In this document: positions 5,509 to 36,062 of the stretch, in pieces
How positions within the stretch are numbered: the stretch's first letter is position 1
Layout of the letters: every line of letters begins with the position of its first letter
Assembly (NCBI GenBank): GCA_021798795.1
Contig: JAJZBR010000008.1
Span: 1-42,587 of the forward strand
Direction: 5' to 3'
Source of the DNA: Pseudomonadota bacterium
GTDB lineage: Bacteria; Pseudomonadota; Gammaproteobacteria; JAKAQQ01
DNA length: 42,587 nt
The notes under the pieces: model-generated
What the model was told of the DNA's origin: nothing
Databases searched by the model: none
The model's input: only the letters and a program-made list of their open reading frames with translations
Position numbers and translations under genes: made by a program

Positions 5509-6618
5509 ATGAACATAACCGTCAAACGTGAACACATTCTGAAACCGGTACTCGCAGTATTGGGCGTCGTGGAACGCAAACAAACGATGCCAATACTATC
5601 TAACATATTGATAAATATAGGTAATGATTTTGTTTCAGCAACGGGAACTGACCTTGAGGTCGAACTCGTTGCCATAGAGACCGGGACAGGTGCGACCGGG
5701 GAACTCAAAACGACCGTACCTGGGAGAAAGTTTGCCGATATTTTGCGCTCGTTTCCCGAAGGTCAGGAGCTCACCCTTGCTTTGGAAGGTGACCGTCTGC
5801 ACCTCAAAGCAGGTCGCAGCCGGTTCAATCTCATTACCCAGCAAGCGGATGAGTTTCCTCTGGTGGGCGAGCCCGAGACCCCGTCACAAGCACGTGTTTC
5901 CGAGCGCAAGCTCCGCGAGCTCATCAGAAGAACCCATTTCTCTATGGCGCAAAACGATGTCCGCTATTACCTCAATGGACTCCGGATTGAGTTCACTGGT
6001 AAATCCATGCGCGCCGTGGCTACAGATGGACATCGCCTCGCGCTTGGCGAGATCGAGATTGAAAGCTCTGAAGGCATTCAGGATGGGATGGGAGTGATTG
6101 TCCCGAGGAAGGGAATTCTCGAGCTCGAGCGGCTGATTTCGGATGAGGAGCGTGCGATCCGGATTGCATTCGGTGCCAATCACCTGCGTATTGATTTGGG
6201 CGAGCTCATCATCACGACCAAACTGGTTGAAGGCCGCTTTCCTGATTATCAAAGCGTTATACCCAAGGACGGACGGCATCGGCTTCCGATCAACCGGGAG
6301 CGACTCAGGCTAGCCTTGTCGCGAGCGGCAATTCTGGCCAATGAAAAAATGAGGGGCGTGCGGCTCAGTTTCGAGTCTCAAGGGCTTCGGGTCATCGGCC
6401 ACAATACGGAGCAGGAAGAGGCTGAGGATCTTGTGGAAGTCAACTATGAGGGAGAAAGTTTCGAGGTTGGATTCAATGTTTCCTACCTGCTCGATGTGTT
6501 GAACGCGATGGAAGATCGTGAGATTGAGCTTTTGATCAGTGACCCGAATAGCAGTTGCCTCATCGATAGTGGGGGGGGCAGGAGCTACCGCTACGTGATC
6601 ATGCCGATGCGGCTATAG
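5509..6618 (+). CDS. dnaN: DNA polymerase III subunit beta (sliding clamp)
   Basis: 369 residues, normal length. N-terminus MNITVKREHILKPVLAVLGVVERKQTMPILSNI and C-terminus YRYVIMPMRL are typical of the clamp. Three repeated clamp domains are expected and the length fits. The dimeric ring tethers Pol III and recruits repair proteins. Its stop TAG is followed at once by the ATG of recF with no gap, so the two are probably translationally coupled. The first 130 bases are unusually AT-rich compared with the neighbouring genes. Confidence 0.98.
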   Translation: MNITVKREHILKPVLAVLGVVERKQTMPILSNILINIGNDFVSATGTDLEVELVAIETGTGATGELKTTVPGRKFADILRSFPEGQELTLALEGDRLHLKAGRSRFNLITQQADEFPLVGEPETPSQARVSERKLRELIRRTHFSMAQNDVRYYLNGLRIEFTGKSMRAVATDGHRLALGEIEIESSEGIQDGMGVIVPRKGILELERLISDEERAIRIAFGANHLRIDLGELIITTKLVEGRFPDYQSVIPKDGRHRLPINRERLRLALSRAAILANEKMRGVRLSFESQGLRVIGHNTEQEEAEDLVEVNYEGESFEVGFNVSYLLDVLNAMEDREIELLISDPNSSCLIDSGGGRSYRYVIMPMRL

Positions 6619-7677
6619 ATGCCCCTTGGCGGGCTCCGCCTAGAGAACCTCCGTTGTTTCGCCCAGGCAGATGTCGATTTCGGAGGTGCCCCGGCGATCT
6701 TGTCGGGCGCGAATGGATCCGGGAAAACAACCCTACTCGAGGGCATCTATCTACTTTCGCGCGGCCGATCCTTCCGGAGCGGATATCCGAACCGGCTTAT
6801 CCGGCGAGGATGTCAGGCTGTCGGTGTCGAAGCTGATGTCCTGGGTACAAGCATCCAACGCAGGGTGCGAGTCACATACGAGAAAAAGATCGTCGCTACG
6901 ATCGATCACCAGGCTGCGACCATACGGGAAATCAGTCAACTGCTTCCTTTGACCCTGATGGACGCAGGGATTGCCCAGATCGTCCTCGGGGGTGCGGAAC
7001 AGAGACGCAAGCTTTTGGACTGGCTCATGTTCCACGTGGAACCCGAGAGCTGGATCGTTTGGAAACAGTATCGCCGGGCACTGCGGCAATGGCAGTGGGC
7101 ACTAAGAAAAGGGATGGATGGCGCTGTCTGGATCGAGCGGATGCTGGTCGGCGCGCCCCGGATTGAAGCCTCCAGAAAACGCCTGATTGCAGCCTGTCTG
7201 CCCCATTGGCACGAGGCCTTTGAATCCTTATTTCCAGGGAGAAACTGGAGTCTCGACTATTCTCCTGGTGTTCCGCCTAGCGCGAGTCTCGCCAGTGCGC
7301 TCCAGGGATGGGCGCCCGAACGCGCCACGCAACCCCTTGCCCCAGGTCCCCACCGTGCCGAGATCGAAATCCGTGTTGATGGTGCACCCGCTCGCCACAT
7401 GCTTTCCCGCGGCCAAGGGAAGCTCCTCTCCATCGGGCTCATGTGGGGTGGGGCACATATGCTGGCCCAACACCTCCAAGCCTGTCCCCTCCTTTTGATT
7501 GATGACTTTGCGTCCGAGCTCGACACGCAAGCGCAAGCGAGACTTCTCGCACTCCTGGCACGGGGAGTGAGCCAGGTGATCCTAACGGCCGTGACGCCTG
7601 TTCGAAAAGAGGAAACCTCTTGCAAGTATCGATTGTTTCACGTGGAACAGGGCCATATCCGGTGGTCGTCTTCATGA
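6619..7677 (+). CDS. recF: DNA replication and repair protein RecF
   Basis: 352 residues. SMC/ABC-type ATPase with Walker A SGANGSGKTTLLEGIYLL (about residues 29-46), signature LSRGQGK (about 262) and Walker B LLLIDDFASELD (about 290). It loads RecA at gaps together with RecO and RecR. It starts directly after the dnaN stop. Two parS-like 16-mers lie inside the coding sequence, so the gene also seems to carry the chromosome-partition site. Confidence 0.96.
   Translation: MPLGGLRLENLRCFAQADVDFGGAPAILSGANGSGKTTLLEGIYLLSRGRSFRSGYPNRLIRRGCQAVGVEADVLGTSIQRRVRVTYEKKIVATIDHQAATIREISQLLPLTLMDAGIAQIVLGGAEQRRKLLDWLMFHVEPESWIVWKQYRRALRQWQWALRKGMDGAVWIERMLVGAPRIEASRKRLIAACLPHWHEAFESLFPGRNWSLDYSPGVPPSASLASALQGWAPERATQPLAPGPHRAEIEIRVDGAPARHMLSRGQGKLLSIGLMWGGAHMLAQHLQACPLLLIDDFASELDTQAQARLLALLARGVSQVILTAVTPVRKEETSCKYRLFHVEQGHIRWSSS
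7028..7043. promoter_or_regulatory. parS-like ParB-binding site 1
   Basis: TGTTCCACGTGGAACC. The inner 14 bases GTTCCACGTGGAAC are a perfect palindrome, and the site matches the form of parS known from pseudomonads. It lies inside recF about 1.7 kb from the putative oriC. ParA and ParB genes are not in the window. Confidence 0.75.
7634..7649. promoter_or_regulatory. parS-like ParB-binding site 2
   Basis: TGTTTCACGTGGAACA, one mismatch from the widespread consensus TGTTTCACGTGAAACA. It lies near the 3' end of recF, about 600 bases after site 1. Two sites this close in one gene are very unlikely by chance. Confidence 0.8.
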
Positions 7678-7694
7678 TAAAATTAGGGAGATAA

Positions 7695-10834
<3,140 letters not shown>

Positions 10835-10889
10835 GCGGTTTAGCACCGGCCCCACACCGACTGACGCCGGGGTACTCAACGAACAGGGC

Positions 10890-11456
10890 TCATCGATAGG
10901 ATCGCGCAAAAGCCGCAAGATCGTCCTGAATCTCGATACCATCGAGAGGCGTGCCCGTGAGACGCGCTCGTGTCTGGGCCCCATTTCCGGTGAGAACCAG
11001 AACCGGGCGTGCACCGGATCGTCTGGCAGCCTCGAGATCGCGGTAACTGTCACCTGCTGCCGGGATGTCGGCCAGAGAGACGCCATAATCCCTTGCGAAG
11101 CGCTGAAAGAGCCCGGGCCGGGGTTTGCGGCAGTCGCAGATTGCCTGAGGTGCGTGGGGGCAGTGATAGATCGCCTCGATCCGCCCGCCCGCCTCTGCGA
11201 CCGCATCGAGCATGCGTTGGTGGATCAAGTCGAGATCGGATTCCGTCATGAGTCCCCTTCCGATGGCGGACTGATTTGTGAGAACCACGACCCCAACCCG
11301 CTTGCGCGTAAGCGAAGCAATTGCTTCGAGGCTTCCCGGGAGCGGAATCCATTCGGCCGGCGATCGAATGTAGTCTCTTGAATCCACGTTGATGACTCCG
11401 TCGCGGTCGAGAATGACGAACCGATTGGGGTCGCCTGGTGCGCGCGCTGACGTCAT
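10890..11456 (-). CDS. gmhB: D-glycero-beta-D-manno-heptose-1,7-bisphosphate 7-phosphatase
   Basis: 188 residues of the HAD family: motif I DRDGVIN (D17 nucleophile, D19), motif II LTNQSAIGRG, the zinc loop CPHAPQAICDCRKP and motif IV AGDSYRDLEAA. It removes the 7-phosphate in ADP-heptose synthesis for the LPS core. The ATG overlaps the glyS stop by four bases (ATGA), and plsC follows 55 bases on, so glyQ-glyS-gmhB-plsC look like one operon. Confidence 0.95.
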   Translation of the reverse strand: MTSARAPGDPNRFVILDRDGVINVDSRDYIRSPAEWIPLPGSLEAIASLTRKRVGVVVLTNQSAIGRGLMTESDLDLIHQRMLDAVAEAGGRIEAIYHCPHAPQAICDCRKPRPGLFQRFARDYGVSLADIPAAGDSYRDLEAARRSGARPVLVLTGNGAQTRARLTGTPLDGIEIQDDLAAFARSYR

Positions 11457-13609
11457 GTGATCTCCCCTCCCTGTAGGCGTTCGAGGTCGGCGATCGAGCG
11501 GAGCAGATCCCGGGCACGCTCGAGGAGAGCGAGGCGTCTTTGGCGCAGGAGGCGATCTTCCGTGAGGATCAGGACGGAGTCAAAAAAGGCTGCAAGTGGC
11601 GCCTCGAGCGCGAGCAGATCCTCGAGCGCCGCTCGGTAATGACCCGCGGCGAGTGCGGTTTGCACTCGCGATTCGAGTGCGGCGAGTGCGGCCTCGAGCG
11701 CCGCTTCCACTGGCTCGAGCGTGAGGGGGGGAGGCGTATCGGCCGGAACCGGAGTATCCACTGGTCTTTTTTTAAGGAGATGTCCCACGCGCTTCATCAT
11801 CTGTGCGAGTGTCAGAAACTCGGGTCGCGGGCGGAGGGTGACGAGCGCATCCAGGCGGGCGCGAAAATCCCCGAGGGTTTCGGGTCGAAGGGCGGCAACG
11901 GCCTCGAATGCATCCAGTTTCCCGCCCTGCTCAAGATAGCGCGCGCGCAGTCGATCCAAAGTGAAATCGTAGAGCTCGGCAGCCAGTCGATCGATCGGCT
12001 GACCCGAATGAACGGATGCCGGATAGCCGGCCAAGGCGGTTTTAAAGAGGTCCACGAGCGGTGGGAGAGGTCCGGGCGCTTGAGCGTGAGAGGCTGGGTC
12101 CGATCGGTGATCGAGGATGCGGGCGATTCCTTGTGCGGCCCGGCGCAGTCCGAATGGATCACGCTGCCCGTTGGGTTTTTCGTCGATCAGGAAATACCCG
12201 GCCAGAAGGTCGGTCCGGAGCGCGAGTGAGAGCAGGCGTCCGAGCGTGGTTTCGGGGAGACCATCCTCAGCCGTAGCTGGCCGGTAAGCTTCGCGAAGTG
12301 CCTGGGTTGCCCCCGTCGGGGATCCCTGGGCCAGGGCGTAGTAGGCTCCGGCTTCGCCCGCAAGTTCCGGATACTCGCGTACGAGGGAGGTGGTGAGATC
12401 GCAGAGCACGAGCGATGCCGCCTCCTCAGCAAGTGCGGGATCCACTCCGAACGGCCGGGACCAGTGGTTGACCCAGCGGATCAGTCGCTCGCGACGCTCT
12501 CCGAGATGACCGAGGCGCTTGTCAAAGAGGATACCGGCAAGATCGCGAGCCCGGTCGGCGAGCGGGCGGAGTTGATCCTCCTCGAAGAAAAATAGCGCAT
12601 CCGCTAAGCGCGGCAGGATGACACGCTCCATCCCGGCGCGTACCCGGTTCACATCGGTGCTGGCCAAGTTCACGACACCTACGAATCCCGGCGCGAGATG
12701 TCGGGTGTGATCCGCGAGCGGGAAGACGCGCTGTTGCCCGCATAAAACGGCACGAATGACCGGATCGGGCAGTTTGAGGAACCGCTCCGGAAACCCTCCT
12801 GCAACCGCCTGCGGCCACTCCACGAGTGCGCTCACCTCTTGAAGGGTCGCTCCACTCGGAACCGGGTGCCATTCGGAGCGCCAGTTGCGGGCGCTTTCTA
12901 CGACAAGACTCCAGATCCGTTCGCGGAGCGCGGGGTCTTCGGGGCGCCCGAGCAGAACATAGGCATTGCGAAGCGCGGATTCGTATTCGTCAGGATGCGC
13001 AATCGTGACTGGAGCGGGGTGGTGGATCGGGTGACCCTGGGCGACGCGTCCGGTTGCCAGTCCGTAGACCTGTCCGGGGACGAGGCGCGTACCATGGAGC
13101 AGAAGGATCGAACGGATGGGCCGGACGAATGGAGGAGTTCCAGAAGCCCAGCGCATTTGCCGGTCGATGGGAATTTTCCTGAGGGCCTCCTCGAGGAGGG
13201 CAGGCAGTCGTTCTTCGAGACGGATCGGAGGTTCGGAGACCTGATAAACCAACCGGTCGGATTCGATCGTGAGTGCGGCGAGATCCACGCCCAGGCTGCG
13301 CGCAAATCCCAGGGCGGCGGGGCGTGGCTGACCTACGGAATCGAATGCTTGGGCGAGTGTCGGTCCACGCTGGATCCGGGTCAGACCGCTCCGCACACAG
13401 GCGACCGCTGGGATCCGAACGGCCAGGCGGCGTGGGGTATAAAACGCTTCAAGGGTTTTCTCCCCCGTGCCGATCCAGCGGTCTTCGGCGAGCCCCCCCC
13501 AGAGACAATCGGCAAAGCATCTCGCCAAGCCGGGTAAAAGCCGTGCGGGGAGTTCAAGCGTGCCGATCTCTGCGAGCAGCGTATCGGATGGGCAGGCATC
13601 GGCGCTCAT
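11453..13609 (-). CDS. glyS: Glycine--tRNA ligase subunit beta
   Basis: 718 residues, the larger subunit of the bacterial alpha2beta2 GlyRS. Recognisable segments are [16 protein letters not shown] at the N-terminus, the central [17 protein letters not shown] and [16 protein letters not shown], and a C-terminal DALR-like anticodon-binding helical region. It overlaps glyQ by four bases upstream and gmhB by four bases downstream. Both subunits are needed for activity. Confidence 0.97.
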
Positions 13610-33713: not shown

Positions 33714-33766
33714 GCCCCCCCCACCCCCCGGATCGCGGTGCGATTCGCGGGCAGGAGAAACCCTGA

Positions 33767-34702
33767 GTGCTCATTGATTATCACCGCAGGCTGGCTGCCG
33801 ATTCGATCCGGTGCGATGCGTTTCGCCGTGCGCTCGAACGGGTGATCGTGCCCGGGGTGAGCCGGGTTGGCGATCTCGGCTCCGGCACGGGCTGGATCGG
33901 ATTCATGGCGCATCAACTCGGGGCCCGGACGGTCACGCTCTACGAGCGGGTGCCATCCCTCGCGAAGATCTCGGAGCGGGTGGCGCGCGCGAACGGCATG
34001 ACCCGTATCCAGGTCTATCCCGAAGATTCCCGCGCGATCATCGATCCTGGACCCCATGACATCATCGTTTCCGAAACGCTCGGAAATCTCGCGCTGGAAG
34101 AGGGAATCGGAGAAGTTTTATGGGATGCGCGCCGGTTTCTCGCCTCCGGCGGGATCCGTATCCCCCGGGCGCTCACGCTCTATGCCCGACCGGTCAGTTC
34201 GAGGCGCTACTTTGTGGAGCTCGATCCCTGGAGTGGTGGCAGCCTGGGTCTCGATTGTGCGCCGCTCGTGTCACTCAGCCGGCAGAATCTTTATGTGCGC
34301 ACTTTTTTGGAGTCCGATTTTACGGGGGCCCCAGAGCCCCAGGCCTGGGACCGGGTCGACTTCACGAAACGCTTTCGTGCGCGTCGCGAGGGGAGCCTCG
34401 AGTGGAATCTCGAAGAGGGGTTCACGCTCCACGGCTTTGCGCTCTGGTGGGAGGCTGAACTCGTAGCGGGAATCAGCCTGTCCACCGCGCCGGATGCGCC
34501 CGCCACCCACTGGGAGCAGATTTACATGCCGATTAAAAATCCCATCCGGCTCCATGCAGGAAGCTTCATCCGGCTTGTGATCAAAAGCCGCTTCTCCGAA
34601 ACAGACGGAGTGGATTTCAGCTGGCAGGTCTCGACCCCTTACGGGAACGAGCGCCTGTCCATCCGCGCCGGGGATATCGAAAAAGATCCGGTGGAGAACT
34701 GA
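33767..34702 (+). CDS. PRMT-like protein arginine methyltransferase
   Basis: 311 residues, GTG start with AGGAG nine bases upstream and an in-frame stop directly before, so the N-terminus is fixed. It has the marks of type I PRMTs: motif I VGDLGSGTGWIGFMA (from 34), ribose-binding Glu60, a double-E loop SETLGNLALEE with E103 and E112 spaced nine apart as in PRMT1, the post-loop ARRFLASGGIRIPRALTLYA, and a THW loop T247-H248-W249 (ATHWEQIYMPI). The N-terminal YFxxY helix is absent. PRMTs transfer methyl groups from SAM to protein arginine; bacterial members are rare. It precedes an amino-acid permease by one base. Confidence 0.8.
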   Translation: MLIDYHRRLAADSIRCDAFRRALERVIVPGVSRVGDLGSGTGWIGFMAHQLGARTVTLYERVPSLAKISERVARANGMTRIQVYPEDSRAIIDPGPHDIIVSETLGNLALEEGIGEVLWDARRFLASGGIRIPRALTLYARPVSSRRYFVELDPWSGGSLGLDCAPLVSLSRQNLYVRTFLESDFTGAPEPQAWDRVDFTKRFRARREGSLEWNLEEGFTLHGFALWWEAELVAGISLSTAPDAPATHWEQIYMPIKNPIRLHAGSFIRLVIKSRFSETDGVDFSWQVSTPYGNERLSIRAGDIEKDPVEN

Positions 34703-34703
34703 T

Positions 34704-36062
34704 ATGTCGATCCTAAATCCCATCGAAGTTCCGCCTGAGCCGGGTCTCACCCGTCGCCTCGGGGCATTCACCGGCGTCATGATCGTTTTGGGGATCGTGA
34801 TTGGCACGGGGCTCTATCGCGTACCGGCGCTCGTCGCAGCCGATGTCCATTCGAGGGTTGATTTCTATTTCGTCTGGGTGATCGGTGGCATCATCGCTTT
34901 GTGCGGGGCGCTTTCCGTGGCCGAACTTGCTGCGATGTACCCGCGGGCGGGCGGGCTCTATGTCTATATCCGCGAGGCGTTCGGCAAACCCCTGGCCTTC
35001 CTGTTCGGCTGGATGTGGCTTTTGACCGACCCGATCTCCTGGGCCGCCCAGTCCCTCATTTTCTCCGAGTATCTCGCGACTTTTGTTCCTCTGGATCCCG
35101 CAGCTCGTCACTTGGCCTCGGTGGCTTTGATCGGGATGGTAGCCACCATCCAGCTGCGTTCGGTCGGCATGGGCGCCTTCGTCCAGAACTTCTTTGGCAC
35201 GATCAAGCTCGTGACGCTTTTCGTCCTCGGGCTCTGTCTCTGGTTCTGGATCCATCCCGTAGCTTATTCTGGCGGGGCGGTTCATCCGGTTCCGGTCTCG
35301 ACTGCCTCGGGCGGCTTTATTCTCGCCCTCCTCGCCGTGCTCTGGGCCTATGACGGCTGGGAGAATCTTACAGCCCTATCCGGAGAGATGCGCAAACCCG
35401 AACGCAACCTGCCGCTCTCCCTGATCACCGGTACCCTCCTCGTCCTTTTCCTCTACCTTGTGATCAACGGAGGATACCTTCGCGTCCTCACCCTGGCGGG
35501 TGTCGCAAGCCATCCCTCGGTGGCTGTGGCCGCGCTGGGTTCGATCGGTGGATCCCTGGCGAAGGTTGTTGTGGCACTCCTCGTCATGGTTTCGGTCCTG
35601 GGATCGTTGAACGGCAGCGTCATGTCCGATCCGCGAGTGTTCTATGCGATGGCCGAGGACGGCCTGTTCTTCCACAAGGTGGGACAGGCCCATGCGCGTT
35701 TCCATACGCCCTGGGTTGCCATCATCATGGATGCGGTGCTTGCAATGATCTTTGTGAGCCTGAGGAGTTTTGCCAATCTTGCCTCCGCTTACGTTCTCGG
35801 GATCTGGCCCTTTCTCATGCTGGCTGTCTGTGGTCTCTTCTGGCTTCGAATCCGGCGCCCCGGGGTGCACCGACCCTACCGAACCTGGGGATATCCGGTG
35901 GTACCGGCCATCTTTCTCCTGGCCTCGCTCCTGGTCCTCGTGGGCGCCGCCTGGCAGAAGCCGGATGATGTCATCCTGAGTTTCGCGCTCACCCTTCTCG
36001 GTATCCCGGTCTACCTCATCTGGCGGCGCACCCACCGCCTCCGCACGCCGGGCCCTGCCTGA
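34704..36062 (+). CDS. APC-family amino acid permease
   Basis: 452 residues with about 12 membrane helices. The first helix has the APC motif GVMIVLGIVIGTGLYRVPALV, followed by ALCGALSVAELAAMYPRAGGLYVYIREAFG, which is typical of LAT-like and other APC transporters. Later segments LAVLWAYDGWENLTALSGEMRKPERNLP and VLGSLNGSVMSDPRVFYAMAEDGLF fit the family. The substrate cannot be told. It starts one base after the stop of the PRMT-like gene, which implies co-translation. Confidence 0.9.
   Translation: MSILNPIEVPPEPGLTRRLGAFTGVMIVLGIVIGTGLYRVPALVAADVHSRVDFYFVWVIGGIIALCGALSVAELAAMYPRAGGLYVYIREAFGKPLAFLFGWMWLLTDPISWAAQSLIFSEYLATFVPLDPAARHLASVALIGMVATIQLRSVGMGAFVQNFFGTIKLVTLFVLGLCLWFWIHPVAYSGGAVHPVPVSTASGGFILALLAVLWAYDGWENLTALSGEMRKPERNLPLSLITGTLLVLFLYLVINGGYLRVLTLAGVASHPSVAVAALGSIGGSLAKVVVALLVMVSVLGSLNGSVMSDPRVFYAMAEDGLFFHKVGQAHARFHTPWVAIIMDAVLAMIFVSLRSFANLASAYVLGIWPFLMLAVCGLFWLRIRRPGVHRPYRTWGYPVVPAIFLLASLLVLVGAAWQKPDDVILSFALTLLGIPVYLIWRRTHRLRTPGPA

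Follow-up and report, generated by a model that had tools for sequence, protein, structure and literature searches.

Protein arginine methylation by PRMTs is regarded as a eukaryotic trait. The window analysed here (the whole stretch of 42,587 nucleotides from contig JAJZBR010000008.1) contains a gene for a 311-residue protein which was originally predicted to be a bacterial arginine methyltransferase that keeps three hallmarks of eukaryotic type I PRMTs, lacks the N-terminal helix that closes over S-adenosylmethionine (SAM), and is coupled to an amino-acid permease. This raises the questions of whether the protein is a PRMT, what it may methylate, and whether the permease belongs to its function. 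The enzymatic part of the prediction, including the missing lid helix, is supported by both alignment and fold.

Reading frame, fold and active site

The gene begins with GTG and ends with a TGA at 34700-34702 (Table 1). The codon right before the GTG is an in-frame TGA (33764-33766), therefore there is no longer reading of this open reading frame and the short N-terminus is real. The gene has a dN/dS of approximately 0.17 (NG86, against same-genus orthologues), a sign of strong purifying selection on its product.

Table 1. Features of the methyltransferase locus (positions in the window).
Feature	Position	Strand	Evidence
PRMT-like guanidino/arginine N-methyltransferase, 311 aa	33767..34702	+	Pfam, PDB phmmer, family profile, AlphaFold, Foldseek
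AGGAG, likely ribosome-binding site, 9 nt 5' of GTG	33753..33757	+	read directly
R15, counterpart of PRMT1 R54, which contacts cofactor and E144; unchanged across 23 sequences	33809..33811	+	alignment; role PMC3748068
Motif I VGDLGSGTG (34-42), SAM-binding loop	33866..33892	+	alignment
E60, acidic residue after motif I, for the SAM ribose; Glu or Asp in clade members	33944..33946	+	alignment
Double-E loop S102-I114 with E103 and E112	34070..34108	+	alignment
THW loop T247-H248-W249-E250-Q251	34505..34519	+	alignment
Amino-acid permease of APC/LAT type, 452 aa, next gene downstream after a gap of 1 base	34704..36062	+	Pfam, PDB, synteny

The protein matches the Pfam models PRMT5_C (5.9e-10) and PRMT_C (3.5e-9), both over their curated cut-offs, while no NCBIfam model attains its cut-off. 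A phmmer search against the PDB returned PRMT6 (1.6e-20), CARM1 (3e-16), PRMT2 (3.1e-15) and PRMT5 (5.9e-14), and a family profile matched human PRMT6 with E=2.2e-48; the PDB chains among the matches listed are PRMTs only (PRMT6, CARM1, PRMT2, PRMT5, PRMT8, PRMT7, PRMT9 and PRMT1). An AlphaFold2 model built from a 23-sequence alignment has a mean pLDDT of 91.5 and a pTM of 0.89, and its top Foldseek match is PRMT6 (TM 0.82, E=1.9e-27), followed by PRMT2 and CARM1 (TM ~0.8). The protein is thus modelled as a Rossmann domain with motif I joined to a PRMT beta-barrel. We set aside the label COG4076, whose documentation is too thin. PrmA, the ribosomal protein L11 methyltransferase, shares only the class I methyltransferase core with our protein (a weak Pfam match, E=0.0041, below the cut-off); it has no PRMT barrel, double-E or THW.

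Motif I (core D36-L-G-S-G-T-G42), E103 and E112 nine residues apart, and T247-H248-W249 all lie at the positions originally claimed and align with their counterparts in PRMT6, PRMT1/Hmt1 and PRMT2, with R15, E103 and E112 falling on PRMT1 R54, E144 and E153. Placement of the two glutamates away from the active site had been named as grounds for rejecting the prediction; by alignment and global fold match, both correspond to the catalytic glutamates within a confidently modelled PRMT fold. The counterparts of these conserved residues in PRMT1 and PRMT2 bind guanidinium (PMC8623767, PMC3748068), and residues of the R54/E144/E153 type are conserved and indispensable to catalytic geometry (PMC3748068, PMC8623767). 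Beyond the fold and these residues, comparison with type I PRMTs (PRMT6, PRMT1/Hmt1, PRMT2 and CARM1) shows, where their dimerisation arm sits, a segment of similar length (54 residues; the arm of Hmt1 has 52). This is a putative arm, for which the monomer model predicts two short helices.

The protein differs from type I PRMTs in four respects: it lacks helix X with its YFxxY motif, has Leu and Ile in place of a methionine pair, carries a glutamate after THW, and belongs to a separate bacterial clade. The YFxxY helix was found neither here nor in the other 22 aligned sequences, and the first helix of the model (residues 2-11) begins, by alignment, at the position of PRMT1 helix Y. The start codons of all clade loci coincide or differ by only a few codons, and they lie 3' of the helix X position; a stop close upstream excludes a longer reading in several of them, and in a few (L026 and L031) the frame stays open further upstream. 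The shared start and the in-frame stop rule out a start-site or frameshift error as the source of the short N-terminus. As judged from the aligned sequences, the absence of helix X is a property of the whole clade and not an oddity of one gene. Because helix X is absent, we classify the protein as a variant related to PRMTs and not as a canonical PRMT.

The original prediction took motif I, the double-E loop and THW as hallmarks of type I enzymes, but double-E and THW mark PRMTs in general. A methionine pair at the PRMT1 M48 and M155 positions is a type I feature, present in all four eukaryotic sequences aligned. The counterparts here are L9 and I114, at positions that vary within the clade; therefore the sequence does not reveal the PRMT type, and we do not retain the type I label.

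A lid-less bacterial clade

Of eight relatives from its own family whose genomes were searched, seven carry the gene, whereas 47 further genomes from the class all lack it. Scanning species genomes recovered 23 loci in Gammaproteobacteria (among them Nevskiaceae, e.g. Fontimonas and Sinimarinibacterium), Planctomycetota, Myxococcota and Candidatus Peribacteria, and the class search added two further gammaproteobacterial members. Two cultured species carry a member, Fontimonas thermophila and Sinimarinibacterium flocculans. Across the four phyla overall identity drops to ~35% with the catalytic residues unchanged: R15, three glycines in motif I, E103, G106, E112, D120 and T247-H248-W249-E250-Q251 are invariant in the 23 sequences. 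THWEQ occurs in every clade member, and its glutamate (E250) is a clade signature, this position being lysine in the eukaryotic PRMTs sampled.

The C-termini are also patterned. A DxxRGxx-type tail ends 10 of the 23 aligned members (e.g. L022 8001-8930, L028 1023-1967, L030, L035 and L037), and the remainder carry KG or DG/VG/IG. The strand before the tail is ordered (residues 301-309) in a model of the Fontimonas homologue (pLDDT 94.9, pTM 0.91).

We reconstructed a maximum-likelihood tree of 46 sequences in which the eukaryotes were represented by PRMT1/Hmt1, PRMT2 and PRMT6 only. The 25 clade members were monophyletic (support 100/99) and separate from these type I PRMTs. The tree does not support a recent transfer of the gene from a eukaryote. 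A phage origin was likewise rejected: no phage record matched the gene, and the viral contigs gave only partial matches of at most 34% identity.

Further bacterial branches of the PRMT fold were recovered: SEC-C-tailed, TPR-associated, PqqD-like-tailed, and one without the THW tryptophan. The SEC-C-tailed proteins (L046, L047 and L053) have complete double-E and THW motifs, as the lid-less clade does, but differ in having THWKQ, a run of aromatic residues (YxxYY) preceding the conserved M position and a CPCGSGxKxKxCC C-terminal tail, and they form a separate clade. The THW tryptophan is lost in the sister-branch sequences L049, L051 and L052 and the glutamates in L055-L057; the lid-less clade shows no such loss. 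In L055-L057, which are from Pseudomonadota, both the glutamate and the THW positions are altered and the C-terminal tail resembles what we take to be PqqD; these proteins likely perform a different chemistry. PRMT-like segments also occur in L050, in a long open reading frame with what is presumably an NRPS-type adenylation-domain sequence, and in L062, where the N-terminus resembles what we assume to be a TubC docking domain.

We found no description of this clade in the papers searched on bacterial PRMTs, so it is apparently a small, undescribed bacterial group of PRMT-like enzymes. The original statement that such proteins are seldom described agrees with these papers, but PRMT-fold proteins at E<1e-20 occur in 13 of 369 gammaproteobacterial and 22 of 299 Pseudomonadota genomes sampled, with the lid-less clade in only a few of the genomes that have them. 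Distant bacterial PRMT-like proteins carry the L11 methyltransferase label in plasmid records; the PRMT-fold proteins of NZ_CP124617.1 and NZ_CP082345.1 (H1 and H5) are annotated 50S ribosomal protein L11 methyltransferase.

The neighbouring permease

The permease begins one base after the methyltransferase stop codon, as first reported (ATG at 34704). It belongs to Pfam AA_permease_2 (E=2.9e-55), with PDB matches to 7ccs (7.2e-53) and the bacterial amino-acid transporter 6f2g (2.2e-47). Six of nine family genomes have the permease, each time adjoining the methyltransferase gene; of the other three, two have the methyltransferase gene at the end of a contig and the third lacks both genes. The permease is directly 3' of the methyltransferase gene, within a syntenic block, in two genera (g1 and g3), where the two genes are probably co-transcribed. 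In the third (g2) it adjoins the gene but is convergent, and the methyltransferase gene follows an ABC/FtsX-type transporter operon. At L014 (9153-13506), from the sister genus, the genes 5' of the PRMT gene encode an ABC ATPase and a permease of FtsX/MacB type (826 aa), with a 4-base overlap.

Clustering of neighbouring genes detected no relative of the permease in the flanks of clade loci outside the family, where the neighbours vary (an MFS transporter, an acyl-CoA thioesterase, an M19 dipeptidase, a sigma factor, a UDP-glucose dehydrogenase and others). These neighbourhoods refute the permease as a universal partner. The proposed coupling is therefore not supported as a general property: the two genes adjoin in one family only, and in one genus out of three they are convergent. 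We regard the permease as a neighbour of local occurrence, with adjacency a family trait and only weak coupling to the methyltransferase; that the pair has survived an inversion suggests some connection within that family and no more. The accompanying idea of methylarginine transport finds no support: the permease is an unspecialised APC transporter of the LAT/BasC kind, and the 80%-complete genome has no match to PF02274 (the arginine deiminase/amidinotransferase family). The lack of a PF02274 match also led us to drop a methylarginine-degradation partner.

Substrate and significance

The protein is best explained as a soluble SAM-dependent guanidino-N methyltransferase of the PRMT superfamily, acting most likely on arginine in protein or peptide, a reading that we consider reasonably probable. 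E103 and E112 would hold the guanidinium, R15 and E60 would position SAM, the barrel and THW loop would form the substrate groove, and the methyl group would pass to a guanidino nitrogen, probably peptidyl. Lacking helix X, the pocket has either to be more open or to be sealed by another element, which may be a partner subunit, the ordered C-terminal strand and tail of the clade, or the substrate. Counting against this explanation, helix X, reported to be indispensable in PRMT1 for cofactor binding and activity (PMC3748068), is missing throughout the clade. The neighbourhoods inspected contain no conserved genomic partner that points to a protein substrate. An RGG-type protein substrate was discarded: the genome has a single RGGRGG-coding pattern, which does not exceed the count for the pattern read backwards, and it does not fall in any protein recognisable as RNA-binding.

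A bacterial precedent also counts against peptidyl methylation: SznE methylates the guanidino group of arginine as a free amino acid (PMC11705231). SznE does so in the biosynthesis of streptozotocin, and our protein may likewise methylate arginine in its free form or some other small guanidine, with the permease moving the amino acid or the product. A small open pocket would be compatible with the missing helix X, an amino-acid permease adjoins the gene in the source family, and MFS transporters lie upstream and co-directional in L022 and L024. Our comparison with SznE was made through a PRMT-fold protein found beside a SznF homologue on the Pantoea dispersa plasmid pAHKW2b.3 (L126, NZ_CP082345.1). 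At 6021-12468, all in one direction, are ada, the SznF homologue (2e-103 to SznF in the PDB), a Rieske protein, the PRMT-fold protein (annotated as an L11 methyltransferase), an MFS exporter and an ATP-grasp ligase. This locus looks like an N-nitrosourea-type biosynthetic cluster, in which ada is plausibly a self-protection gene, and by analogy, from its SznF neighbour, the PRMT-fold protein is likely the equivalent of SznE. It shares a PRMT_C domain, the two glutamates and an HW motif with our protein at 24% identity, but it differs in its SETVDxGxxGEG loop (with D at the G106 position), its SHW and its biosynthetic-type cluster. It does not group with our protein but falls in the TPR-associated branch, a placement that weakens the case for a small-molecule substrate. 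In addition, neither SznF nor other biosynthetic genes surround the window's gene or the homologues inspected, and the permease has no relative in flanks outside one family. We therefore regard methylation of free arginine or of another small guanidine as rather unlikely.

Altered active sites in bacterial PRMT-like proteins such as L049 and L055 raise the prospect that the fold serves another nucleophile (RNA, lipid or a non-guanidino metabolite), which is improbable here, as the E103/E112 guanidinium pair and the THW loop are invariant in the clade, unlike in those branches. The missing helix X could also mark a degenerate, inactive relative; given the dN/dS of the gene, its invariant catalytic residues and its retention across phyla, we consider this very improbable.

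We favour methylation of peptidyl arginine, and more tentatively suggest that the lid-less clade methylates arginine in the proteins of Gammaproteobacteria, Planctomycetota, Myxococcota and Peribacteria, with a variant closure of the pocket in place of helix X that could involve, for example, the C-terminal strand and DxxRG-like tail. The clade represents a new bacterial form of the PRMT family in which the lid is missing and the catalytic residues are intact. Its study also flags the mis-annotation of PRMT-fold proteins as L11 methyltransferases. The clade lets the need of helix X for PRMT chemistry be tested, and with the full guanidinium-binding machinery present in two cultured species, the action of bacterial PRMTs on proteins becomes directly testable.
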